Origin: Pseudoclavibacter sp. RFBB5
GTDB lineage: Bacteria; Actinomycetota; Actinomycetes; Actinomycetales; Microbacteriaceae
NCBI RefSeq assembly: GCF_002931555.1
Contig: NZ_PSTZ01000006.1
Coordinates: 124,001 to 188,000 of the forward strand
Reading direction: 5' to 3'
DNA: 64,000 bases
The notes beneath the pieces are model-generated. The model was not told the DNA's origin, did not search any database, and saw only the letters and a program-made list of their open reading frames with translations. Each line of letters starts with the position of its first letter. Positions within the stretch are counted from its first letter, which is position 1. Made by a program: the position numbers and the translations under genes. Shown piece by piece: positions 25,510 through 38,632 of this stretch.

Positions 25510-25663
25510 CACTGCGTCAGCCAGCGGCCGGTCGCCGCGGGGGAGCGGCCGGTCGCGAGGCGCAGCCGGTGGGTTCGATGCGCTCGACTCGTTCGGGGGC
25601 CTCACCGACGCGCTCTGCCGCCGCACCGAGGCGAGTCTCTTCCAAAGACGTGGGGCAGACCGC

Positions 25664-26482
25664 GTGAAGGTGATCGAACTGCTGCTCGGCAGGGTCCTCA
25701 TCGTTAGCGCCGACGCCCGTGCACTCGGCGGACGAGACCGCCGGCGGTCTCTCGAGGTGCTGTCCGCGGGTGACCGCGAGCGGCTGGGCACCATGTCCGA
25801 CGCGCGGGCAGACGGCCGCGCGGACGCGTTCCTCACCGGTCGCCTGCTTGTGCAGCTCGGCCTCGACCACCTCGCGGGAGACCATCTCGAAGGCGGGGAG
25901 CACGGGCTCGCGCCGGTCGCGGCGCTCGAGGCAGTGTGCTCACACTGCGGTTCGACGAGTCACGGGAAGCCGAGCATCCCGGGCCTGCCGGTGCTCGTGA
26001 GCATCGCCTACGCGGGGTCCGCGGTCTTCGTCGCGCTGGCCAGCGCCGACGATGTCGGCGCACTCGGGATCGACGCCGAGGCGCTGCGGTCCCACGGAGA
26101 CTCCGCCCCTGCGCTGCCCGCCCCTGCGATGCCCGACCGTGAACTCTCAGAGCCAGACCAGGACCCGTCGCCCCCTGCGCCTTCGAGGGATGCGTTCGAC
26201 CCGGCTCTCGACCTCGAGCGGTGGACCGCCGTCGAGGCGGTCCTCAAAGCTGACGGCCGCGGGCTGCGCGTCGACCCGAGCTTCGTGCGCCTCGCGTCCG
26301 GCGAGGGGCGTGCCGACGGGGAGGAGCATGCTCGCATCTCGGGGGACGAGGCGAGCTACCGCATCCACCGGTCCGTCGTCGACCGTCGCTTCCTCGTGGC
26401 CGTGGCCACACGGAAGCCGGACCGGGGAACGAGCCTGGCCAGTGCACCCGCTAACGAAGGAGCCGGGTCACCTTCGCCCTGA
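25664..26482 (+). CDS. 4'-phosphopantetheinyl transferase superfamily protein
   Basis: This 272-residue protein shows the Sfp-type phosphopantetheinyl transferase order. RADAFLTGRLLVQ lies near residue 55, HGKPSIPG at 100-107, VSIAYAGSAVFVALA at 112-126, the magnesium-binding Asp137 and Glu139 in GIDAEA, and WTAVEAVLKADGRGL at 187-201 with Glu191 and Lys195. Such enzymes move the coenzyme A arm onto carrier proteins. A Cys-x-x-Cys (92-95) precedes the GKP motif. A Pro-rich insert (143-175) separates the two halves and is longer than usual. The closest carrier-protein gene is the Pls-like synthetase 1.3 kb away, the likely client (inference). The GTG start lacks a strong Shine-Dalgarno, and the 3' end overlaps the convergent M1 gene by 32 bp. 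Confidence 0.8.
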   Translation: MKVIELLLGRVLIVSADARALGGRDRRRSLEVLSAGDRERLGTMSDARADGRADAFLTGRLLVQLGLDHLAGDHLEGGEHGLAPVAALEAVCSHCGSTSHGKPSIPGLPVLVSIAYAGSAVFVALASADDVGALGIDAEALRSHGDSAPALPAPAMPDRELSEPDQDPSPPAPSRDAFDPALDLERWTAVEAVLKADGRGLRVDPSFVRLASGEGRADGEEHARISGDEASYRIHRSVVDRRFLVAVATRKPDRGTSLASAPANEGAGSPSP

Positions 26483-27809
26483 GCGCGCTGGGCAGCTCGG
26501 GAAGGGCGAGCTGGTAGAGCCAGGCGTCGAAGAGCTCCTGGAGCGGGGCGTCCGGCACGACTTTCGCGGTGTGCTCGATGAACTCGGCGGTCGAGGCCAC
26601 GGAGAAGCGCTTCACCGAGGTCCAGCTCGTGAGGATCTCGAAGAACGCCGAGTCGCCGACGGTCAGGCGCAGGGCGTGGAGGGTGAGCGCGCCGCGCTTG
26701 TAGACGCGGTCGTCGAACATGTCGGCGGCACCCGGGTCGCCGAGCAGCAGGTCCTGCGGCAGCTCGGAGAGCGTGCGCCAGTAGTACCTGGCGAGCTGGT
26801 CGGCGCTCTCGGCGCCGCTCGCCTCTGCCCAGATCCACTCGGCGTAGCAGGCGAATCCCTCGTTCAGCCAGATGTGCTGCCAGCCACCCACTCCGATGCT
26901 GTTGCCGAACCACTGATGCGCGAGCTCGTGGGCGACGAGGCGCTCCTGGCCTCTGGCACCGTCGATCTGGTTCGCGCCGAAGATCGCCATGCCCTGGGCC
27001 TCAAGGGGGATCTCGAGGTCGTCGGCCGTCACGATGACGGCGTAGGAGTCGAAGGGGTACGGGCCGAAGGTCAGCTCGAAGGTCTCCATCATGCGGGAGA
27101 GGTCGGCGAGGTCTGTGCCCACGCGACGGGCGAGGGCGGGCGGGTAGTGCAGGCGTCCGGCGACTCCCGCGAGCTGCACGTCTTCGCGCCGGTAGCGGCC
27201 GATCTGCAGGGTGACGAGGTAGCTGGCGGTCGGTGCGCCCTCCTCGTACACCCACGTCGTCAGGCCTCCGGATGAGCGCCTCGAGTGCAGCGCTCCGGTC
27301 GCGACCACGTCGTAGCTGCTGTCGACGGAGACCTGGATGCGGTAGCTGGCCTTGTCGGCGGGGTGGTCGTTGCAGGGGAACCAGGTCGGGGCGCCCGTGG
27401 GCTGCGAGGCGACGATGATGCCGTCCTCGAGCTCTTCCCAGCCGATGGTTCCCCATCGGGAGCGGCGGGGACGAGGGGCGCCCTCGTAGACGACCTCGAG
27501 CGTGATGGCGGCTCCGGCCTCGACTGGCTTCGACAGCGTGACCTTCAGCTTGCGGTCGCTCTGCTTGAAGCGCGCCTGCTTGTCACCGCGAGCGGCGACC
27601 TTGCTGACGCGAAGGCCGACGAGGTCGAGGGAGAACGCGGTGAGGGGAACGGTGGCGCGGATGCTCAGCGTCGCCGTGCCGGAGAGTCGGTTGTTCTGCA
27701 TCCGGTACTTGAGGGTGAGGTCGTAGTGCTCGACACGGATGCTCACGTCGCCGCTCTGCGGCGTGTAGGGGTTGCCGGGCAGGGGCTCAAGCGCGGCGGC
27801 GCGGTTCAT
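26451..27809 (-). CDS. M1-family zinc aminopeptidase
   Basis: This 452-residue M1 metallopeptidase removes N-terminal residues from peptides. The zinc site is HELAHQWFGN (His294, Glu295, His298) with the third ligand Glu317 in NEGFACYAEW. The beta-rich N-terminal domain (residues 20-205) is complete. The GAMEN exopeptidase loop appears as LEAQGMAIFG near 269-278. It lacks the large C-terminal helical domain of PepN, being the short form. No signal peptide is seen. Its start overlaps the stop of the Pls-like synthetase by four bases, so the two are translationally coupled. Some poly-epsilon-lysine producers use aminopeptidases to degrade their polymer, suggesting a related role (inference). 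Confidence 0.92.
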   Translation of the reverse strand: MNRAAALEPLPGNPYTPQSGDVSIRVEHYDLTLKYRMQNNRLSGTATLSIRATVPLTAFSLDLVGLRVSKVAARGDKQARFKQSDRKLKVTLSKPVEAGAAITLEVVYEGAPRPRRSRWGTIGWEELEDGIIVASQPTGAPTWFPCNDHPADKASYRIQVSVDSSYDVVATGALHSRRSSGGLTTWVYEEGAPTASYLVTLQIGRYRREDVQLAGVAGRLHYPPALARRVGTDLADLSRMMETFELTFGPYPFDSYAVIVTADDLEIPLEAQGMAIFGANQIDGARGQERLVAHELAHQWFGNSIGVGGWQHIWLNEGFACYAEWIWAEASGAESADQLARYYWRTLSELPQDLLLGDPGAADMFDDRVYKRGALTLHALRLTVGDSAFFEILTSWTSVKRFSVASTAEFIEHTAKVVPDAPLQELFDAWLYQLALPELPSALRAKVTRLLR

Positions 27810-30800
27810 GACACCTTCGACTGGTAGGCGCGGAGCTTGAGCGCGCGCCAGGGGCCGATGGGGTTGCCGCTCCAGCGGCTGCCGACGGGCACCGACTCGC
27901 CTCGCATGACAAGGGAGGCTGGTCCCACGGTGGCGTGGGCGCCGATCGTGGCGGCGGGCAGGATCACGCTGTGCGGTCCGAGTGTTGCGCCTGCTTCGAG
28001 GGTGACGGTGTCCATGCTCATTATTCGATCATGGAACAGGTGAGTCTGGACGACGCATCCCCGGTTGACGGTGGCTCCGTCGCCGAGAGTGACCAGATCT
28101 GCCTCCGGGAGCCAGTAGGAGTCGCACCAGACGCCCTTGCCGATCTTCGCGCCCAGCGAGCGCAGCCAGAGCGCGAGGGCGGGCGTTCCGGCGGCCCCGC
28201 GCGCGAACCAGGGGGCTGCGACCATCTCGACGAAGGTGTCTGCGACCTCGGTGCGCCACACGAAGCTCGACCAGAGGGGCTGCTCGGAGACGCGGATGCG
28301 CCCGACGATGACCCACTTGGCGACCGTCGAGATGAGGGCGGATGCGGCTGCCGCGGCGAGCAGGACGAAGCCGGACAGGACGATGGTCCAGGCGACGCCG
28401 ACCGCGGTCTCGATGGCGGCGAGGGCGAGGAGCACGCCGAGGCCGAGTCCGCAGGTGACGATGACGGGAACGATGCGGCACAGCTCCCAGAGCGCGCGGG
28501 CGATGCGCAGCGCCCGCGGCGGGTTGTAGGTGCGGGACTCGTCGCCGTCGACCGTCACTCGGCGGAGGCGTACGGGGGGCGAGCCGAGCCAGGATGAGCC
28601 GGGCTTCGCCTTCGCGGGCGCGGCGGAGAGCACGGCGACGAGGCCGTCGCGGGGCACGGAGTGCCCTGCCGCTGCCATGCCGGAGTTGCCAAGGAAGGCT
28701 CGTGCGCCGATGCGGGCTCGCTCGATGCGCATCCACCCGTTGTGCAGCTCGTAGGAGGCGACCATGGTGTCGTCGGCGAGGAACGCGCCGTCATCGATCT
28801 GCGTCATCGAGGGGAGGAGCAGCACGGTCGAGGCCTCGACGTCGCGGCCGACCTTGGCGCCGAGCATCCGCAGCCAGAGCGGGGTGAAGAGGCTCGCGTA
28901 GAACGGGAAGAGCATGGTGCGGGCGGCGTCGAGTAGGCGCTCGATGCACCAGGCCTGCCAGGCGACGCGTGAGCGCACGGGGTGCGTGCCCTGTGCGAGG
29001 CCGATCGAGAGGAGACGCACGAGGGTCACGACGAGCCCCGCGAAGGTGACCCCCGCAGCGATGACTGCGGGTGCGAGCCACGCGAACGCGGCGAGGGTGG
29101 CGTCGCCCAGTGACGCTGCACCGCGCATCCCGACCGCGACGACAACCCCGCCGACCGCGAACGAGAACAGCGGCAGCAGCGCGAGTGCCGCTGACGCGAC
29201 GGCGTAGACGAAGGCCCACCCGAACGGCTGCGGTGGGCGTTCGGCGGGCCAGTCGTTCGCGCGCACCTTGCCGACCCGGACGGCGGGGGATCCGGCCCAG
29301 CTCTTGCCGGAGCGAACCCGGCCGAAGACCGCGGAACCGGGCGCGACCTCGGCCCCCTGGCCGATCTTGGTGCCGGGGGCGAGGGTGCTTCGGGCGCCGA
29401 CCGTCGCGCCGGCGCCGATGCGGATGCCGCCGATGCGCACGAGCTCGCCGTCGATCCAGTAGCCGGTCAGGTCGACCTCCGGCTCGATGGCCGCGCCGTC
29501 GCCCAGCTGCAGCATGCCCGTGACCGGCGGCAGCGAGTGCAGGTCGACGTTGTTGCCGACCTTCGCGCCGAGTGCCCGTGCGTAGTAGACGACCCAGGGC
29601 GCACCGGCGAGCCCGACGGCGTCGATCTGCGTGGCGACCTGCTCGGCGAGCCAGAGGCGCATGTGGGTCGCCCCGCCGCGTCGGTAGTCGCCCGGCTTCA
29701 GGCGGAACAGCAGGATGCGCGCGGCTGCAACCGAGATCGCCATCTTCCCGAACGGGGTCACGAACACCACGAGCATGACGAGGATGAGCCAGAGCGGCGC
29801 ATCCGGCAGCACCTCGAACCCGGGCAGGAGCTGCAGCAGGGCGCTCGCGGTGAGCAGGTAGGTGATCCAGCGGGCCCCGGCGAGGATGTGCAGGGGGAGA
29901 CCTGCGACGATCTGCAGGATGCGCGCCGACAGCGGAGTCGGCCCTGGTGTGCTGAAGGTCGTGGGCAGCTCGTCCTCATCGTCGAGCGCTTCGCGGATCG
30001 ACTCGGTCATGGCCCCGAGGCGGGGATGGTCGTACACATCGGCGACCGTGAACTCGGGGACGCGGGCGCGCACGCGCGTCACGAGCTGGGCGGCAGAGAG
30101 CGAGCCGCCGCCGAGGTCGAAGAAGTCGGCGTCCTCGCTGCCGACGGGCAGTCCGAGCACGGCCTGCCACTGCTCGGCGAGCCAGGCGGTGTGGGCGTCG
30201 AGGTCGCCGGAGACCTCGTCTGCACCGGGGAGCGGCCAGGGCAGTGCGTTCTTGTCGACCTTGCCGGACGTGCGGGTCGGCAGGGAGTCGACCTCGGCGA
30301 TCAGCGGCACGAGGGCCTTCGGCAGCTGCTCGCCGAGTTCGGCGCGCGCGAGCTGCCGCTCGTAGCCGGGTCCCGTCACGACGTAGCCGACGAGGATGGA
30401 GGCGCCTGCCGAGGTCTTTCGGACGGCGACGGCCGACCCGGTGACGCCGGTGACGGCCTGCAGCGCCGCCTCGACTTCGCCGAGCTCGATCCGACGGCCG
30501 CCGATCTTGACCTGGTCGTCGGCCCGCCCGAGGAACACGAGACCTTCTGCTTCGTACTTGACGAGGTCGCCTGAGCGGTAGGCGCGCTCCCAGCCGAGGC
30601 TATCCATGGGCGCGTACTTCTCGGCGTCCTTGGCCGGGTCGAGGTAGCGGGCGAGGCCGACGCCGCCGATGATGAGCTCGCCGGATTCGCCTTCTGCGAC
30701 GCGCTTGCCCTCGGCGTCGACGACGGCGAGCTCCCACCCGTCGAGCGGGAGGCCGATGCGGATGGGCGCGTTGCCGTCGAGGAGCGCTGCGCATGCGACG

Positions 30801-31744
30801 ACGGTGGCCTCGGTCGGGCCGTACGTGTTCCAGACCTCGCGGCCGTCGCCGAAGAGGCGCTGCGTGAGCTCGAGCGGGCAGGCCTCGCCGCCGAAGATGA
30901 GGAGCCTGACCTGCTCGATGGTCTCGCTCGGCCAGAGTGCGGCCAGTGTCGGGACGGTCGAGACGACTGAGATCTGGTGCCGCAGGAGCCATGGCCCGAG
31001 GTCTTCGCCGGAGCGAACCAGCGACCGAGGGGCTGGCACGAGGCACGCGCCGTAGCGCCAGGCGAGCCACATCTCCTCGCAGGAGGCGTCGAAGGCGACC
31101 GACAGGCCGGCGAGGACGCGGTCGCCTGGGCCGATTGGCTCGGCCTGCAGGAAGAGCTTCGCCTCGGCGTCGACGAAGGCGGCCGCGGAGCGGTGGGAGA
31201 CGGCGACGCCCTTCGGCACCCCCGTCGAGCCGGAGGTGAAGATGACCCAGGTGTCGTCGTCCAGGTGCGGGCCGTCGAGCTCGTCGAGGCTGCTGCTCTC
31301 GGGGTGCGGTGCTTCGGCTTCGAAGAGATCGACCGGTTCCCCTGCTGGCTGCTCGCCGTCGGCCGCGAGCACGAACTCGCCGTCGCCCTCGATGGTGCCT
31401 CGCACCTTGGCCTCGCCGAACACGAGCAGCGCTCGCTCGTCCGGGTCGTCGACGTCGACGGGCACGTAGGCGGCCCCGGCGGCGATGATGGAGAGGATCG
31501 CCACGTACAGCTCACGGGTGCCGGACACGAGTCGCACGCCAACCTTGTCGCCGCGACGGACTCCCGCATCCTGCAGCACCTTGGCCGTCTGGGCGACGTA
31601 GGCCGACAGATCCGAGTAGCTCAGGGGAGCGACGCCGTCATCGATCGCGATGGCGTCGGGATGCGCGGTCGCTGTCGCCGAGAGCACGTCGATGAGGGTG
31701 CGGGGCGCGGGGGCGGCCGAGGATCGGTCCAGAGGGGAGTGCAC
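27806..31744 (-). CDS. Pls/PosA-family membrane NRPS (homopoly-amino-acid synthetase-like)
   Basis: This 1312-residue single-module synthetase has the architecture of epsilon-poly-lysine synthetase (Pls). The adenylation domain spans residues 15-505, with TSGSTGVPKG at 170-179, NTYGPTE at 306-312, DDQVKIGGRRIELGEVE at 409-425 and catalytic Lys495. The carrier domain has FFDLGGGSLS with attachment Ser548. The C-terminal ~700 residues contain about six membrane helices alternating with hexapeptide-repeat (left-handed beta-helix) segments such as IGAGATVGARSTLAPGTKIG. In Pls this part joins amino acids through side-chain amines. A canonical condensation domain and thioesterase are absent. Selectivity residues read DAESIGTVV-K, suggesting a basic substrate. 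The start is at 31744. It forms an operon with the M1 peptidase. Confidence 0.9.
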   Translation of the reverse strand: MHSPLDRSSAAPAPRTLIDVLSATATAHPDAIAIDDGVAPLSYSDLSAYVAQTAKVLQDAGVRRGDKVGVRLVSGTRELYVAILSIIAAGAAYVPVDVDDPDERALLVFGEAKVRGTIEGDGEFVLAADGEQPAGEPVDLFEAEAPHPESSSLDELDGPHLDDDTWVIFTSGSTGVPKGVAVSHRSAAAFVDAEAKLFLQAEPIGPGDRVLAGLSVAFDASCEEMWLAWRYGACLVPAPRSLVRSGEDLGPWLLRHQISVVSTVPTLAALWPSETIEQVRLLIFGGEACPLELTQRLFGDGREVWNTYGPTEATVVACAALLDGNAPIRIGLPLDGWELAVVDAEGKRVAEGESGELIIGGVGLARYLDPAKDAEKYAPMDSLGWERAYRSGDLVKYEAEGLVFLGRADDQVKIGGRRIELGEVEAALQAVTGVTGSAVAVRKTSAGASILVGYVVTGPGYERQLARAELGEQLPKALVPLIAEVDSLPTRTSGKVDKNALPWPLPGADEVSGDLDAHTAWLAEQWQAVLGLPVGSEDADFFDLGGGSLSAAQLVTRVRARVPEFTVADVYDHPRLGAMTESIREALDDEDELPTTFSTPGPTPLSARILQIVAGLPLHILAGARWITYLLTASALLQLLPGFEVLPDAPLWLILVMLVVFVTPFGKMAISVAAARILLFRLKPGDYRRGGATHMRLWLAEQVATQIDAVGLAGAPWVVYYARALGAKVGNNVDLHSLPPVTGMLQLGDGAAIEPEVDLTGYWIDGELVRIGGIRIGAGATVGARSTLAPGTKIGQGAEVAPGSAVFGRVRSGKSWAGSPAVRVGKVRANDWPAERPPQPFGWAFVYAVASAALALLPLFSFAVGGVVVAVGMRGAASLGDATLAAFAWLAPAVIAAGVTFAGLVVTLVRLLSIGLAQGTHPVRSRVAWQAWCIERLLDAARTMLFPFYASLFTPLWLRMLGAKVGRDVEASTVLLLPSMTQIDDGAFLADDTMVASYELHNGWMRIERARIGARAFLGNSGMAAAGHSVPRDGLVAVLSAAPAKAKPGSSWLGSPPVRLRRVTVDGDESRTYNPPRALRIARALWELCRIVPVIVTCGLGLGVLLALAAIETAVGVAWTIVLSGFVLLAAAAASALISTVAKWVIVGRIRVSEQPLWSSFVWRTEVADTFVEMVAAPWFARGAAGTPALALWLRSLGAKIGKGVWCDSYWLPEADLVTLGDGATVNRGCVVQTHLFHDRIMSMDTVTLEAGATLGPHSVILPAATIGAHATVGPASLVMRGESVPVGSRWSGNPIGPWRALKLRAYQSKVS

Positions 31745-31815: not shown

Positions 31816-32691
31816 CTAAGTCGGGTACTCAACGAAGGACAGCTCAATGCGGTGCATGAGTTCCCCGTCGAGTCTCAGCTCGATTCCTACCGGCCCCGGT
31901 TCGAAGACGAGGAGCGGCACCGGCCAGATCATCGCGGCGGGCCTAACTCCGCTGGGGATGTAGGCAGATGGCATGGTTTTTGCGAACATGAGCTCGGCGC
32001 TGAATTCTGGAGAAGCTAGAGCTTCGAGCTTTCCCTCTTTATAGGCCGTCCGTGCGAGGGTTTCGCTCTCAGAGTCTGCGATGAGCGCGACCCGAGCTCG
32101 CGATGCATGTTCGATGTCCATCGTGATCACGGCCTGTCGACCGCCATCGGCTCCGAGCCCGAACAATCGAGTCAGGATCGTGGGCGCAAAGAAATGAGGG
32201 CGAGTCTCCATCTCCATGCTCGATCCCATGACCTTCGTGGCCGTGTAGGTCCCGGTCTCGTTCACAAGCACTGACTCTGCTACCAGCGAGTAGTCGTGAC
32301 GATCGCTCGCTCGAAGGCGATGCTCGTAGAGCCACTCTGTTGCCTTGTCTTCCCTGAAATCGAGGGACTCGACAACGGCGTTGACGATGGCCTCACCTGC
32401 GATGGCTGGTATGGAACGTAGATGTTGTCCGTTTGCGCGGAGAAATGTGTCGGTCGCGATCCACGCGGTGCGCTTGTTCCCGTTTGAGAAGCCCTGTGTG
32501 GTAGCCAACGCGTGCAATAGTGCCCCCGCCTTGGCCCAGATCGTAGGATAAAGATCCTTGCCCTCAAATGAAGCGCGGGGTCTGCCAGCGGCGCTGGCGA
32601 TGTCGTCGCGGTTACGAACACCAGATTGCTCCGCGGCCACAATCTCGTTGATTCTGATCAGCGCATCAACGGAGAGGTAAGTGATCGTCAT
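31816..32691 (-). CDS. Doc/Fic-like toxin with a C-terminal extension
   Basis: Residues 1-130 of this 291-residue protein match the Doc (death-on-curing) branch of the Fic fold. They open TITYLSVDALIRINEIV and have RPRASFEGKDLYPTIWAKAGALL (split) and the Fic loop QGFSNGNKRT at 66-75. Canonical Doc has His at the first position of that loop, here Gln66, while the phosphate-binding GNKR is intact. Residues 150-291 form a beta-rich domain of unknown role (DGGRQAVITMDIEHASRAR, FEPGPVGIELRLDGE), loosely similar to DUF6941-type proteins. The start overlaps the stop of a 55-residue partner gene (ATGA). GC content is visibly lower than the neighbours (about 52% at 31981-32040), suggesting transfer. 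Confidence 0.8.
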   Translation of the reverse strand: MTITYLSVDALIRINEIVAAEQSGVRNRDDIASAAGRPRASFEGKDLYPTIWAKAGALLHALATTQGFSNGNKRTAWIATDTFLRANGQHLRSIPAIAGEAIVNAVVESLDFREDKATEWLYEHRLRASDRHDYSLVAESVLVNETGTYTATKVMGSSMEMETRPHFFAPTILTRLFGLGADGGRQAVITMDIEHASRARVALIADSESETLARTAYKEGKLEALASPEFSAELMFAKTMPSAYIPSGVRPAAMIWPVPLLVFEPGPVGIELRLDGELMHRIELSFVEYPT

Positions 32692-33072: not shown

Positions 33073-33171
33073 TCCACCGGGTGGCGTCCCCACCGTGAGG
33101 CTTTCGGACACGGCACTCGCCGCGCATCTGCGCGCGTGTCGGGGAGCCGTGGCTTCTACTCAGGAGAACTC

Positions 33172-34566
33172 ATGACAGCAGTGCAAGATCGGACGGCTCG
33201 TCGGTCGTCTGTGCTGGCCCGCAGCGGCGCAACACTCGCCGCCGCCGGCCTCATCGCGGCGGGCCTCGGCCTCGGCGCGGCACCGGCCTCGGCAGCCGAA
33301 TCAACCGTCGAGAACGTCTCGTTCTCATGGCAGGTCAACACGGAGTCCGGCGCAGGCGCGTACTTCGGAGGCTGCAACTACCTCGTCGCGGGGCAGGTCG
33401 GCAACGCCGGTTCCTCTCACGTCTGGGCGGAGTCGGAAGGGTTCTACAAGACCGCCGATGGCAACGTCACCGTCACCAGGCCCAACGCGGCTGGCGAGCA
33501 GACTCAGCCGACCTGGGCCACGAAGTGCCAGACCCCGGCAGGCGGCAACGTGTCGGCTCCGGCGGGCACGTCCTCCGCGAACCAGGTCAACTTCGCCGGC
33601 GGAACGGGCACGGTCGACCCGGACACGGAGACCGGCACCATCGGCTGGGACGGGTCGTTCACGTTCGTCTTCTACGGCGGCATGACGTACTGGTCCGTCT
33701 CCGACATCCAGCTCGAGGTCGTCAACGGCGAGGGCACGCTGACCGGCACAGCTTCCGGCTACGGCGCGTCCATGGATGACGCCACGATCTGGGAGCCGCT
33801 GCCCTCGCGCACCATCGACCTCGCGACGTTCAGCGGCGTCGACCTGACGGCCACCGGTGCCGTCGTCGACGTCGACTACGCCGGCGTCGAGGTCGACACG
33901 ACCGGGACGCCCCAGTCGCGTACCGGAGCCAACTGGGGTTCGTTCCCGCAGTCGTTCGTCGAGTACAACGAGCTGACCGGCCAGTCCTCCTACTGGTACT
34001 CGTCCGGCGGCGCGGCTGACGCGCGCAAGACGGCGAAGCCCTTCTCGGTGGCCTACACGCTGCCCGAGGTCGAGGTTCCCGGCCCGCCAGAGGGCAACGT
34101 CGACGTCGTCATCCCCGAAGCGGAGATCGTGCCCCCTGTCGACCCAGAGACCGGGTCCTTCTCGTGGGCGTGGGCCGACGCCAACGGCGCCGACCTCGGC
34201 ACCGCCGTCCAGACGGGTGACAACTTCGTCGCCACGGGTTCGATCAGCAACGTCGCCGTCACCGACACCCGCGCGGGCGGCACCGCCGCGTACGGCTGGA
34301 CGGTCTCCGGACAGTCCACCGACTTCAGCAACGGCACGGACTCGTTCGGCGCCGAGGCCCTCGGCTGGTCGCCGAAGGTCCTCACGGGCAACCCGGACAA
34401 CGTCACCGCCGGCACGGCCGCGACGGGTCTCGGCTCGGCGCAGAAGCTCGCCCAGTCGAACGCTGCCGCAAGCGCAACGCTGGGTGCTGACCTCACCCTG
34501 TCGGTTCCCACCACCACGAAGCAGGGCGCGTACTCCGCGACCCTCACCATCTCGGCGATCTCCTAG
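33172..34566 (+). CDS. secreted HtaA-like haem-binding protein with C-terminal WxL-like domain
   Basis: This 464-residue exported protein has a signal peptide at residues 1-42 (cleavage near ASAAE). Residues 45-310 form one HtaA-like haem-binding domain: FSWQVNTESGAGAYFGGCNY, FVFYGGMTYWSVSDIQLEV, and FVEYNELTGQSSYWYSSGG at its end. Cys68 and Cys119 are positioned for a disulfide. A Pro-rich linker (315-340) leads to a beta-sandwich domain (340-464; VTDTRAGG, GWTVSG, ending YSATLTISAIS) that recalls WxL-type cell-wall-associated domains, though the WxL tryptophans are not clearly conserved. There is no membrane anchor, so it is released or bound non-covalently. The ATG has CAGGAG upstream, and a hairpin after the stop may raise its level over downstream genes. 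Confidence 0.82.
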   Translation: MTAVQDRTARRSSVLARSGATLAAAGLIAAGLGLGAAPASAAESTVENVSFSWQVNTESGAGAYFGGCNYLVAGQVGNAGSSHVWAESEGFYKTADGNVTVTRPNAAGEQTQPTWATKCQTPAGGNVSAPAGTSSANQVNFAGGTGTVDPDTETGTIGWDGSFTFVFYGGMTYWSVSDIQLEVVNGEGTLTGTASGYGASMDDATIWEPLPSRTIDLATFSGVDLTATGAVVDVDYAGVEVDTTGTPQSRTGANWGSFPQSFVEYNELTGQSSYWYSSGGAADARKTAKPFSVAYTLPEVEVPGPPEGNVDVVIPEAEIVPPVDPETGSFSWAWADANGADLGTAVQTGDNFVATGSISNVAVTDTRAGGTAAYGWTVSGQSTDFSNGTDSFGAEALGWSPKVLTGNPDNVTAGTAATGLGSAQKLAQSNAAASATLGADLTLSVPTTTKQGAYSATLTISAIS

Positions 34567-34574
34567 GCGCTGAG

Positions 34575-34609
34575 GAGTGCGCGGGAGCCCACCGGGCTTC
34601 CGCGCACTC
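34575..34609 (+). terminator. hairpin after the first htaA-like gene
   Basis: GAGTGCGCGG (34575-34584) pairs perfectly with CCGCGCACTC (34600-34609), extended by AGCCC/GGGCT inside. It begins eight bases after the stop codon and probably acts as a partial terminator between a highly expressed secreted protein and the rest of the locus. Confidence 0.75.
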
Positions 34610-34706
34610 GCACCTCGCTGCCCGCGCATCCGCTCGGGCAGCACCTCGCCCCTCCACCTCTCGCTCCGACGCGGCCCCACCGCGAGGGCCCCACGTTAGG
34701 GACCAC

Positions 34707-36137
34707 ATGGCTCTCCCCATCCGTCTCCGCATCCGCGCCACAGCCTCCGTCGTGCTCGCGGCCTCGCTGCTGGCGCTGCTGTCGTCGCTCGCCCCGACGG
34801 CCGCGCACGCCGACACGACGCAGCCGCCCGCCTGGAGCATCGACACGGTCGACGGCGATCGCGGATCGGGCCGCGCGAACTTCTCCTACGAGGTCGACCC
34901 CGGCGACGTCATCACCGACTCCATCAGCGTCACCAACACCGGTCCGGGTGCGCTGAACCTGACGATCTACGCCGCGGACGCGTTCACGACGGCGACCGGT
35001 GCGGTGGACATCCTCGAGAGCGGCGAAGCCTCGGTGGATGCGGGACTCTGGGTCGCGCCGGGCGCCGGCTCGATCTCGCTCGAGCCGGGCGCGAGCACTG
35101 ATGTCCCCTTCACGCTCACCGTGCCGGCCGACGCGACCCCCGGTGATCACTCCGCGGCGATCGTCGCGTCGCTGCTCCCCGCCGACTCGGACGACCAGGT
35201 GAAGGTCGAGCGTCGACTCGGACTCCGCATCGACATGCGGGTCAGCGGTGCGCTCGCGCCCACCGCCGAGATTCGGAGCCTCGACACGGACTGGTCGGCG
35301 GCGGGCATCAACCCCTTCGGCGGAGGCACCACCACCGTCAGCTATGAGCTCGTGAACACCGGCAACGTGCGGCTCGCTTCGATGGAAGACCTGCGCCTCA
35401 GCGGCATCGGCGGCTCATCGCCGGTTGTGCTCACCGGTGCGGACGTGCCAGAACTGCTGCCGGGATCGTCGGTCACCGTCACGCGCGCACTGAGCACCGG
35501 GGCCGTGGGCCCGCTCAGTGGAACGCTCACGCTCTACCTGCAGCCGATGGATGCGTTCACCGACGTGCCGGTGGCCGTCACCGCCGAGCTGTCGGCCTTC
35601 GCGCTGCCCTGGTCGCTCGTCGTGCTCGTCGTCATCCTGCTCCTCGCCGTCGCGGCCGTCATGTTCTGGATCTGGCGGCGCCGACGCCTCGACCTCCTGA
35701 TGGTGGGCTACGGCGACGACGCAGGACTCGGGGCCGAGAAGCTCGCGCCCCCGCGCGTGGCAGGCGCCGCAGGCGCTGCACTCGCGCTGCTCGCCGGCGT
35801 CGTGCTTGCGCTCGGCGTCGGCCTCTCGGGGCCGACGCCCGCGGTTGCCGAGCCCGCTCCGACCTCGCCGTCCGGAGTCGTCGAGGTGACCATTCCAGCG
35901 CCGACTGCCGTGGCGACGTCCACGGCTGCCCCGGGCACGTCGCAGACCGCGGCCCCGGCTCCGAGCACCGGATCCGGCGGCGGCTCCAACGCGGGCAACG
36001 GCTCCGGCACCGCTGGCGGCGGAACCGGGCTCATCTCCACCGGCAACGAGCCGCTCGCCCTCGCGCTCGGGGTCGGCGCGCTGGCACTCATCGGCGGCAT
36101 CGTGCTGCTGCTTCGCCGCCGGGGACGCACCGGCTGA
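34707..36137 (+). CDS. DUF916/WxL-like membrane surface protein with sortase-like tail
   Basis: This 476-residue exported protein has a signal peptide at 1-35 (AHA cleavage). Residues 42-180 and 185-298 are two Ig-like domains of the DUF916 type (FSYEVDPGDVITDSISVTNT, PADATPGDHSAAIVASLL), as in proteins that accompany WxL cell-wall proteins in Firmicutes. A membrane helix (303-323) is followed by a basic patch. Residues 350-476 then look like a separate small exported protein fused on: hydrophobic helix 354-374 ending AVAE, a Pro/Thr/Ser/Gly linker, LISTG at 442-446, a hydrophobic helix at 450-469 and a RRRGR tail. LISTG resembles an LPXTG sortase site with Ile for Pro. It probably presents or tethers the HtaA-like protein encoded upstream. 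Confidence 0.72.
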   Translation: MALPIRLRIRATASVVLAASLLALLSSLAPTAAHADTTQPPAWSIDTVDGDRGSGRANFSYEVDPGDVITDSISVTNTGPGALNLTIYAADAFTTATGAVDILESGEASVDAGLWVAPGAGSISLEPGASTDVPFTLTVPADATPGDHSAAIVASLLPADSDDQVKVERRLGLRIDMRVSGALAPTAEIRSLDTDWSAAGINPFGGGTTTVSYELVNTGNVRLASMEDLRLSGIGGSSPVVLTGADVPELLPGSSVTVTRALSTGAVGPLSGTLTLYLQPMDAFTDVPVAVTAELSAFALPWSLVVLVVILLLAVAAVMFWIWRRRRLDLLMVGYGDDAGLGAEKLAPPRVAGAAGAALALLAGVVLALGVGLSGPTPAVAEPAPTSPSGVVEVTIPAPTAVATSTAAPGTSQTAAPAPSTGSGGGSNAGNGSGTAGGGTGLISTGNEPLALALGVGALALIGGIVLLLRRRGRTG

Positions 36138-36197
36138 TCCGACCCCCCGCGACCCCCCCCCGCATCCGCGAGCAGACCAGACACAAACGAGGAACCC

Positions 36198-37442
36198 ATG
36201 CCCCTGCCACGCACGCTCCGCCGCTTCCGTCGCTCGACGATCCGTCGTGCCGGCTGTGCGGCGCTCGCGGTGGTGGTCGTGTCGGTGCTGTGGGCCAACG
36301 GGTTCCACAACATCGGCACGGCCAACGGCGCGGGCAACGAGCAGTGCGTCTCGCAGCCCGTGCAGGCCGACCCGGTCGCCCCGGTTCTGCCGTCGGTCAC
36401 GGCGGCTGAGCTCCCCGACCCGCGCAGCATCACGGGGCCGACCACCGCCTACACGCAGACGGCGGCGATCAACCCCATCACCGACGCGGCGACCGCCGTG
36501 CAGCAGCTCCCGACGACGTTCACGAGCTCCGACGGCGCGGAGACAACCGTGACCGACACGACGCGCATCCTTGCCATCAACCAGAACGGCGGGCTCGCCG
36601 CCGCCGTTATCGGGCTGGGCTTCGGGTGCAACCTCATCGGGCGCGACACCGCGACCGATATCACGAAGGTCATGCCGGGCAACGAGCAGCTGCCGCTGGT
36701 CACGCAGAACGGGCACGAGCTCAACGCCGAGTCGATCCTCCAGCTCGCGCCGACGGTCGTCGTGACCGACGCCTCCATCGGCCCCTACGACGTGCAGCTG
36801 CAGCTGCGCCAGGCCGGCATCCCCGTGGTCATGGTGCCCATCGCGTACGAGGACGGCGTCGAGGGCGTCTCCCCGCAGATCCAGTTCGTGGCGGATGCGC
36901 TCGGCGTGCCGTCCCTGGGGGAGAGCCTCGCGCAGCGAACACAGGCCGAGATCGGCACGACCATCCAGCAGCTCGGCACGATGGCACCCACCGACCCGGA
37001 GAAGAAGCCGCGCGTCGTGTTCCTGTACCTGCGCGGCAGCGTCTACTACTGGTTCGGCGCCGGCTCAGGCGCCGACTCCATCATCCAGAGCATCGGCGCT
37101 CGCGACGTCGCCACCGAGGTCGGGTTCGCGGGCATGTCGCCGACCAACGCAGAGGCCCTCGTCCGCGCCGCCCCGGACGTGATCATCGTCATGACGATGG
37201 GCCTCGCCTCGGTCGGCGGCATCGACGAAGCCGTGCAGCTGCCCGGCATCGGGCAGACCCCGGCGGGCGCGAACAAGCGCATCGTCGACATGAGCGACTA
37301 CGAGGTCATGAGTTTCGGCCCCCGGTCGGCGTCGGTGCTCGCGGCCCTCGGCACCGCGATCTACGCGCCGGAGCTGGCCTACGTGCCGGCGGCCGACCCC
37401 GCGGCGGACCCCGCCGATGGCGCCGAACAGAGCGGCGAATGA
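36198..37442 (+). CDS. hmuT: haem ABC transporter substrate-binding protein HmuT
   Basis: This 414-residue class-III (Fe3+/haem type) binding protein has two lobes joined by a long helix. ILAINQNGGLAAAVIGLGFG opens the first lobe, QNGHELNAESILQLAPTVVV carries a candidate haem-ligand His, and RVVFLYLRGSVYYWFGAGSG carries candidate Tyr ligands, followed by MSPTNAEALVRAAPDVIIVM. Residues 21-33 are a hydrophobic segment, but Cys20 comes before it, so no normal lipobox exists. The protein may be membrane-anchored by an uncleaved helix instead of lipid. The ATG is preceded by GAGGAA, and the stop overlaps hmuU. It hands haem from the HtaA proteins to HmuUV. Confidence 0.88.
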   Translation: MPLPRTLRRFRRSTIRRAGCAALAVVVVSVLWANGFHNIGTANGAGNEQCVSQPVQADPVAPVLPSVTAAELPDPRSITGPTTAYTQTAAINPITDAATAVQQLPTTFTSSDGAETTVTDTTRILAINQNGGLAAAVIGLGFGCNLIGRDTATDITKVMPGNEQLPLVTQNGHELNAESILQLAPTVVVTDASIGPYDVQLQLRQAGIPVVMVPIAYEDGVEGVSPQIQFVADALGVPSLGESLAQRTQAEIGTTIQQLGTMAPTDPEKKPRVVFLYLRGSVYYWFGAGSGADSIIQSIGARDVATEVGFAGMSPTNAEALVRAAPDVIIVMTMGLASVGGIDEAVQLPGIGQTPAGANKRIVDMSDYEVMSFGPRSASVLAALGTAIYAPELAYVPAADPAADPADGAEQSGE

Positions 37443-38632
37443 TGAGAGATGCGAACGTGACCACGACTCCGCCAAGCACCCACCCGCGGCCAGAAACAGG
37501 GCAGCCGAAGCGACGGAGCCTCGTCGACCGCGTCGAGGAGCGCACCAGCCGCCGCCCAGAGCCGGTCGCCCAGCCGACGGATGCGCCACCCCGCTCCAAG
37601 AAGGCGCGCGCCTCGCTGCTCGCGGCGATCCTCACGATCCTCCTCATCGCGGGCTGCCTCGTCTCCGCGATGATCGGCCAGCTGTACATCCCGCCGCTTG
37701 AGGTGCTCGGCTTCCTGCTGAACCAGGTGGGCATCAACTGGCTTCCCGGCCCCAGCCACGAGTTCGGGGCGGCCGCGCTCGCGGAGGTCCGCTTCCCGCG
37801 TCTGGTGCTCACGGTCCTCGTCGGCGCGGCGCTGGCCGTCGCTGGCGCGCTCATGCAGGGCATCTTCGGCAACCCGCTCGCCGAACCCGGCTCCGTCGGC
37901 GTCTCCGCAGGCGCGGCAGTCGGCGCGAGCTTCTCGATCCTCTTCAGCCTCACGTTCCTCGGCCCGTTCACGACCCCCACGTTCGCATTCGTCGCCGGCC
38001 TCATCACGACGTTCGTCGTCTACTCGCTGTCCCGTTCCGGCCGGCGCACCGACGTCATCACACTCATCCTGACCGGTGTCGCCGTCAACGCCGTCTGCGG
38101 TGCGCTCATCGCCTTCATCACCTTCAGCGCACCGACGCAGGCGCGCGAGCAGATCGTGTTCTGGCAGATGGGCAGCATGAACGGATCCCGCTGGGAGCAG
38201 GTCTGGCTCGTCGCCCCGCTCATCATCGTGGGGTGCATCCTCGCCATCGGGATCGGAAGGCAGCTCGACCTGCTGTCGCTCGGCGAGAAGGCGGCCCGCC
38301 ACGTCGGTGTGAACGTGGAGCGCGTGCGCCTGATCGTCATGATCTATGTGGCCCTCCTCGTCTCCGCGGCGGTCGCCTTCGCCGGCATCATCGCGTTCGT
38401 CGGGTTGGTCGTGCCGCACATCATCCGCATGATCATCGGCCCGACGCACCGTCCGCTCCTGCTCTGCTCGGTGCTCGGCGGGGCCCTGCTGCTCACGATC
38501 GCCGACCTCGGCGCCCGCACCCTCGTCGAGTACGCAGACCTGCCCATCGGCATGCTGACCTCCCTCATCGGCGGGCCGTTCTTCTTCTACCTGATCCGGC
38601 GCAGCCGGGCGAAGGGCGGCGCGTGGTCATGA
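37439..38632 (+). CDS. hmuU: haem ABC transporter permease HmuU (FecCD family)
   Basis: This 397-residue FecCD/BtuC-type permease forms the membrane channel for haem. A 50-residue hydrophilic, proline- and arginine-rich N-terminus precedes about ten helices. Family signatures are LAEVRFPRLVLTVLVGAALAVAGALMQG, FGNPLAEPGSVGVSAGAAVGA (both read in parts), VFWQMGSM, LGEKAARHVGVNVERVR and AGIIAFVGLVVPHIIRMIIG. The ATG at 37439 overlaps the hmuT stop (ATGATGA), and a second ATG at 37442 is equally possible. The stop overlaps hmuV. Confidence 0.93.
   Translation: MMRDANVTTTPPSTHPRPETGQPKRRSLVDRVEERTSRRPEPVAQPTDAPPRSKKARASLLAAILTILLIAGCLVSAMIGQLYIPPLEVLGFLLNQVGINWLPGPSHEFGAAALAEVRFPRLVLTVLVGAALAVAGALMQGIFGNPLAEPGSVGVSAGAAVGASFSILFSLTFLGPFTTPTFAFVAGLITTFVVYSLSRSGRRTDVITLILTGVAVNAVCGALIAFITFSAPTQAREQIVFWQMGSMNGSRWEQVWLVAPLIIVGCILAIGIGRQLDLLSLGEKAARHVGVNVERVRLIVMIYVALLVSAAVAFAGIIAFVGLVVPHIIRMIIGPTHRPLLLCSVLGGALLLTIADLGARTLVEYADLPIGMLTSLIGGPFFFYLIRRSRAKGGAWS

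Follow-up and report, generated by a model that had tools for sequence, protein, structure and literature searches.

A predicted epsilon-poly-L-lysine locus in Pseudoclavibacter with a coupled M1 peptidase and a convergent phosphopantetheinyl transferase

In Pseudoclavibacter sp. RFBB5, genes for a Pls/PosA-family synthetase, an M1 metallopeptidase and an Sfp-like phosphopantetheinyl transferase (PPTase) lie side by side at positions 25664-31744 of a 64,000-nucleotide stretch, here called the window. Their arrangement raises the question of whether the three belong to one pathway and what that pathway would make. We consider it very likely that the locus encodes an epsilon-poly-L-lysine pathway with a PPTase-loaded Pls, an exported polymer and a PldII-type M1 peptidase that most likely works inside the cell. 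In the proposed mechanism, the PPTase would attach the phosphopantetheine arm to the Pls carrier domain and the A domain would activate L-lysine. The membrane-embedded C-terminal part would then link the lysines via their epsilon-amino groups, the chain would exit the cell, and the translationally coupled M1 peptidase would degrade polymer, most likely the fraction retained in the cytosol. Joint action of the three gene products is what we infer from the evidence presented below.

Anatomy of the locus and its synthetase

The synthetase gene pls (27806-31744, minus strand) encodes 1312 residues from a GTG start. It is followed on the same strand by a pldII-like M1 metallopeptidase gene (26451-27809, 452 aa) whose ATG start has a 4-bp overlap with the pls TGA (27806-27809). 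The PPTase gene (25664-26482, plus strand, 272 aa) is convergent with the M1 gene, their 3' ends overlapping by 32 bp (26451-26482), and sits between clpX and the pls-M1 operon. An A-T synthetase with a membrane and hexapeptide part, a coupled M1 peptidase and a convergent, overlapping PPTase had been described in the initial annotation, and all of these elements were found exactly where it placed them. Upstream of pls by 71 bp and on the same strand lies a Fic/Doc-type gene (31816-32691, minus strand; PF02661, 42.4 bits), for which no counterpart was seen across the 46 family loci searched. Further on, at 33136-38632 on the plus strand, are genes for an HtaA-domain protein, a periplasmic binding protein and, between them, a protein with weak similarity to WxL-interacting proteins (26.8 bits, under the 27.3-bit gathering threshold), ending with a permease-like frame as judged by eye; together they possibly serve the uptake of haem or iron.

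Pfam searches of Pls at E up to 0.001 returned only AMP-binding (23-366), PP-binding (521-581) and a single Hexapep match (773-806), with neither a condensation nor a thioesterase domain among them. The carrier domain bears a GGGSL serine motif, read by eye. The C-terminal part (610-1296) matches TIGR02353, the Pls/PosA terminal-domain model against which the initial annotation had asked for it to be checked, at 716.8 bits (cut-off 423.1) and over positions 2-695 of the model's 695. Kyte-Doolittle segments were found at 642-675, 841-919 and 1084-1148, which probably represent helix pairs, and another lies at 78-99 within the A domain.

The best PDB sequence match of Pls is 7wew, the A domain of an epsilon-poly-L-lysine synthase, at 638 bits, with the runner-up at 380. 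The binding pocket, at code positions assigned by way of the GrsA motifs, reads DAESIGTVVK and is of the lysine type; the residues are identical in 7wew in the printed alignment, compared by eye. Using one best frame per locus and excluding frames of 600 aa or less, we found DAESIGTVVK in 79 aligned Pls proteins, the window's counted, and DAESVGTVVK in one more. These 80 lysine-type synthetases are the same 80 loci that carry a strong same-strand M1 gene. Among the best 80 of 594 relatives, Pseudoclavibacter sp. AY1H1 has the nearest Pls (93% identity). At the chain-length position matching PosA Met218 the window's Pls has alanine, the residue reported at this site in lysine-activating A domains (PMC10522769). 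The initial annotation had proposed an isopeptide-linked homopolymer such as epsilon-poly-lysine; the Pls family assignment stood, and the pocket residues together with the relatives narrow the predicted product to epsilon-poly-L-lysine.

Linkage in Microbacteriaceae and the phosphopantetheinyl transferase

A survey of gene neighbourhoods across Microbacteriaceae identified Pls in 99 of 249 genomes. The 103 rows obtained gave 102 Pls places, the two Pls pieces of genome G084 being counted as one. For M1, the 98 strongest places (at least 572 bits) were used; G056, G071 and G149 (3 of 101 genomes) have only weaker M1 matches. At 98 of the 102 Pls places a same-strand M1 gene is found no more than 1 kb away. 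Of the four exceptions, three (G080, G142, G194) are second copies of Pls, all from a single genus, and one belongs to an incomplete genome (G225, 82% complete). A convergent PPTase gene is present within 2 kb of 80 of these 98 M1 genes and, in another arrangement, within 8 kb of six more. No PPTase occurs within 8 kb of the remaining 12, of which G061 and G160 lie at contig ends. When one locus per other genus was taken together with those of Pseudoclavibacter, the window included, 41 of 46 M1-bearing loci had the convergent PPTase (two of them spaced 1.1-1.3 kb); among the 39 other genera, each sampled by one locus, 34 had it. The co-occurrence that the initial annotation had put up for checking is therefore a regular feature of the family, and such recurrence rules out a chance meeting of the three genes. 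Within Pseudoclavibacter itself, Pls exceeds the cut-off in 8 of 10 genomes, with that of G007 split across two contigs.

The PPTase was assigned by PF01648 (30.6 bits against a cut-off of 25) and retains G139, D141, E143, W191, E195 and K199 (numbered from base 25652), all invariant in 35 aligned sequences with the window's included. Profiles built from the linked PPTases were used for the surveys because an NCBIfam search at E 0.001 gave no match and the Pfam ACPS model missed linked PPTases that the profile found (e.g. G002 versus L061). These profiles matched in 97 of 99 pls-bearing but only 11 of 150 pls-lacking family genomes, a contrast to be read with the profile's leaning towards pls-bearing genomes and the non-independence of genomes within one family in mind, both of which keep its Fisher value from being a fair probability. 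Within the pls-bearing genomes, 89 of 111 matches fall within 8 kb of a Pls.

For the wider distribution, a phylum survey (Pls in 24 of 396 genomes) and an order survey (90 of 297) were carried out, and 20 stretches were retrieved from each. In other families of the order (L111, L113, L114, L133-L147, L152), a PPTase faces the M1 gene within 2 kb in 10 of 19 M1-bearing loci, and in L137 it does so at 2.5 kb. Outside the order, it adjoins pls in none of 15 M1-bearing loci (L115, L116, L118, L120-L127, L129-L132). Among the best 80 of 594 relatives, a same-strand M1 gene, counted anywhere within the retrieved locus, is present in all 80 and a convergent PPTase in 37; these top-ranking records are not randomly drawn, and some of the loci end early. 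These 37 include Microbacterium, Agreia, Plantibacter, Curtobacterium, Cryobacterium, Arthrobacter-type and Humibacillus records and one of Propionibacteriaceae. Going by record titles, Nocardia, Rhodococcus, Tsukamurella and Williamsia are not represented among them, and the two Leifsonia records in the same best 80 lack the PPTase.

A competing reading is that the PPTase is a general-purpose enzyme which merely adjoins pls, without any particular connection to it. Its absence beside pls outside the order and its patchiness in the order's other families speak for this, as do the 12 family M1 genes without a PPTase within 8 kb. So does a second PPTase-type match in the same genome, found near an NRPS-like frame (L107:6303-13000) about 60 kb from pls and beyond the window. 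Against it stands the convergence of the PPTase with the M1 gene across the family and its genera, while clpX, the gene on its other side, adjoins only 5 of 47 loci, every one in Pseudoclavibacter. Further, G003 and G009, the two Pseudoclavibacter genomes with no Pls above the cut-off, also give no PPTase-profile match around their sole PF01648 matches (L109, L110). We thus regard a general-purpose enzyme as unlikely and favour a PPTase that would serve Pls.

Coupling and probable site of action of the peptidase

In the M1 protein, Peptidase_M1_N and Peptidase_M1 both score above their gathering thresholds and the zinc motif HELAHQWFG...NEGFA is intact. It shares 42-57% identity with 14 other pls-linked M1 proteins, Streptomyces among them, and 42% with the M1 protein beside an annotated Streptomyces pls; the likeness to S. 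albulus PldII is drawn from the published description of that enzyme. A start codon giving the 4-bp overlap is available in the M1 frame in 48 of the 80 same-strand pls-M1 pairs, and in the remaining 32 the start was guessed. With the overlapping start, fewer than 25 residues precede the conserved core in 43 of the 48 proteins. The other five are L136 and L137, which had no motif match, L138, where a late motif was matched, and L131 and L132 with longer N termini; in L132 the depositors' M1 start lies 129 bp beyond the pls end.

Hydropathy revealed neither a signal peptide nor a hydrophobic N terminus in the window's M1 protein, and the same holds for nearly all relatives. Among the 80 pairs, with N termini shorter than 15 residues or lacking the motif skipped, the highest 15-residue value was 1.59 in Streptomyces L131, the only clearly hydrophobic case, followed by 0.96 in L142, where the start was guessed. 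The lack of a signal peptide makes clearance of internal polymer likelier than trimming of exported polymer. On the basis of its sequence, the peptidase would most likely work inside the cell, protecting against retained polymer and recycling it.

The opposite arrangement, in which the M1 peptidase trims the exported polymer outside the cell and thereby sets its length, draws on S. albulus, where repression of pldII is reported to yield polymers longer than 40 units and the enzyme is placed outside the membrane (PMC9223678). That location conflicts with the M1 N termini seen here. Given these N termini, extracellular trimming appears rather improbable for the window's enzyme. The polymer-trimming peptidase of the initial annotation thus stands as an M1 family member coupled to pls, with trimming itself the weaker of its likely roles and intracellular degradation preferred.

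Considering both partners together, we lean somewhat towards a three-gene variant of the epsilon-poly-lysine system in Microbacteriaceae and, with gaps, in the order's other families, in which the PPTase would be reserved for Pls and the polymer would be degraded by an M1 peptidase that is cytosolic and not secreted.

Other Pls types and comparison with known systems

A Pls-type synthetase making poly-ornithine, poly-diaminobutyrate, poly-diaminopropionate or poly-beta-lysine instead would be in keeping with the several such products known across the Pls/PosA family (PMC8117764, PMC10522769) but is highly unlikely here, since the window's Pls shares its pocket with 7wew and the M1-linked set, has alanine at the chain-length position, and differs from the nine Pls-type loci with a different or unaligned code (L097, L112, L117, L119, L128, L148-L151), which lack a close same-strand M1 gene. 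PosA, the delta-poly-L-ornithine synthetase of Acinetobacter baumannii, belongs to the same Pls/PosA family but has the pocket DMEHNGTVSK (PMC10522769).

Several individual loci show arrangements of their own. Distant Pls types near divergent M1 genes, with a lipoprotein-like N terminus as judged by eye, occur in L148:4248-13765, L128:4318-12770 and L150:2518-8107; the pocket is DFEYNGTVTK in L148 and L150 and unaligned in L128. In L148 and L128 a same-strand PPTase gene separates Pls from M1, and L150 has no PPTase match. Genome G080 carries two copies: the second (L097:3306-10918) has the pocket DFECLSVVTK, no adjoining M1 gene and an upstream PPTase, and the lysine-type copy (L096) has an M1 gene and no PPTase match.

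The synthetase-peptidase pair itself is already known from the pls-pldII operons published for S. albulus and coryneforms. The initial annotation was right on anatomy and, in the main, on function; at the heart of what it described is an established operon, now adding a Pseudoclavibacter-type genome to the pls carriers. Beyond this described core, the modest new elements are a PPTase that recurs as a neighbour and a peptidase that looks cytosolic. In a limited literature search of titles and abstract beginnings, no report of a PPTase beside pls was found. With most subscription papers, the original PldII paper included, outside that search, this is weak evidence that the link is unreported. 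The term phosphopantethein- is absent from the main text of PMC8117764, PMC10522769 and PMC11078813, and only unrelated mentions occur in that of PMC4361855, PMC4668381 and PMC13291983.

More and more countries have approved epsilon-poly-lysine as a food preservative (PMC8117764), and the PPTase would be a likely matched activator for heterologous expression of such synthetases. The Corynebacterium variabile gene yields epsilon-poly-lysine in S. coelicolor; in C. glutamicum it was expressed and gave no product, for which missing activation is only a possible cause, and C. variabile itself is reported to make no detectable epsilon-poly-lysine (PMC8117764). By analogy with these two cases, the window's locus may be silent.

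In antiSMASH terms the locus would fall, by description, into the class of non-alpha poly-amino acids (NAPAA), which is a detection class and not a tested pathway; every strain of one Antarctic set is reported to carry NAPAA clusters, which its Micrococcaceae share (PMC11078813). Closer parallels exist among characterized pls systems. In Corynebacterium, including C. variabile, a pls-peptidase operon has likewise been reported, and Microbacterium, also of the Microbacteriaceae, is listed among further pls carriers with Arthrobacter, Rhodococcus and others (PMC8117764). In S. albulus, pldII encodes the main degrading enzyme and adjoins pls in one operon with a 4-bp overlap (PMC4361855), and the present locus resembles this system in its synthetase, its coupled peptidase gene with the same overlap and its lysine-type pocket. 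Streptomyces sp. NBC_01454 (L131, plasmid) similarly has an annotated pls and an M1 metallopeptidase gene overlapping by 4 bp, and no PPTase profile match was found across 17 kb. The window's locus differs from this record and that of Kitasatospora (L132) in that a PPTase gene faces its operon and not theirs, and from L131 additionally in that its peptidase has no signal-like N terminus, which suggests that the partner peptidase would act inside the cell.
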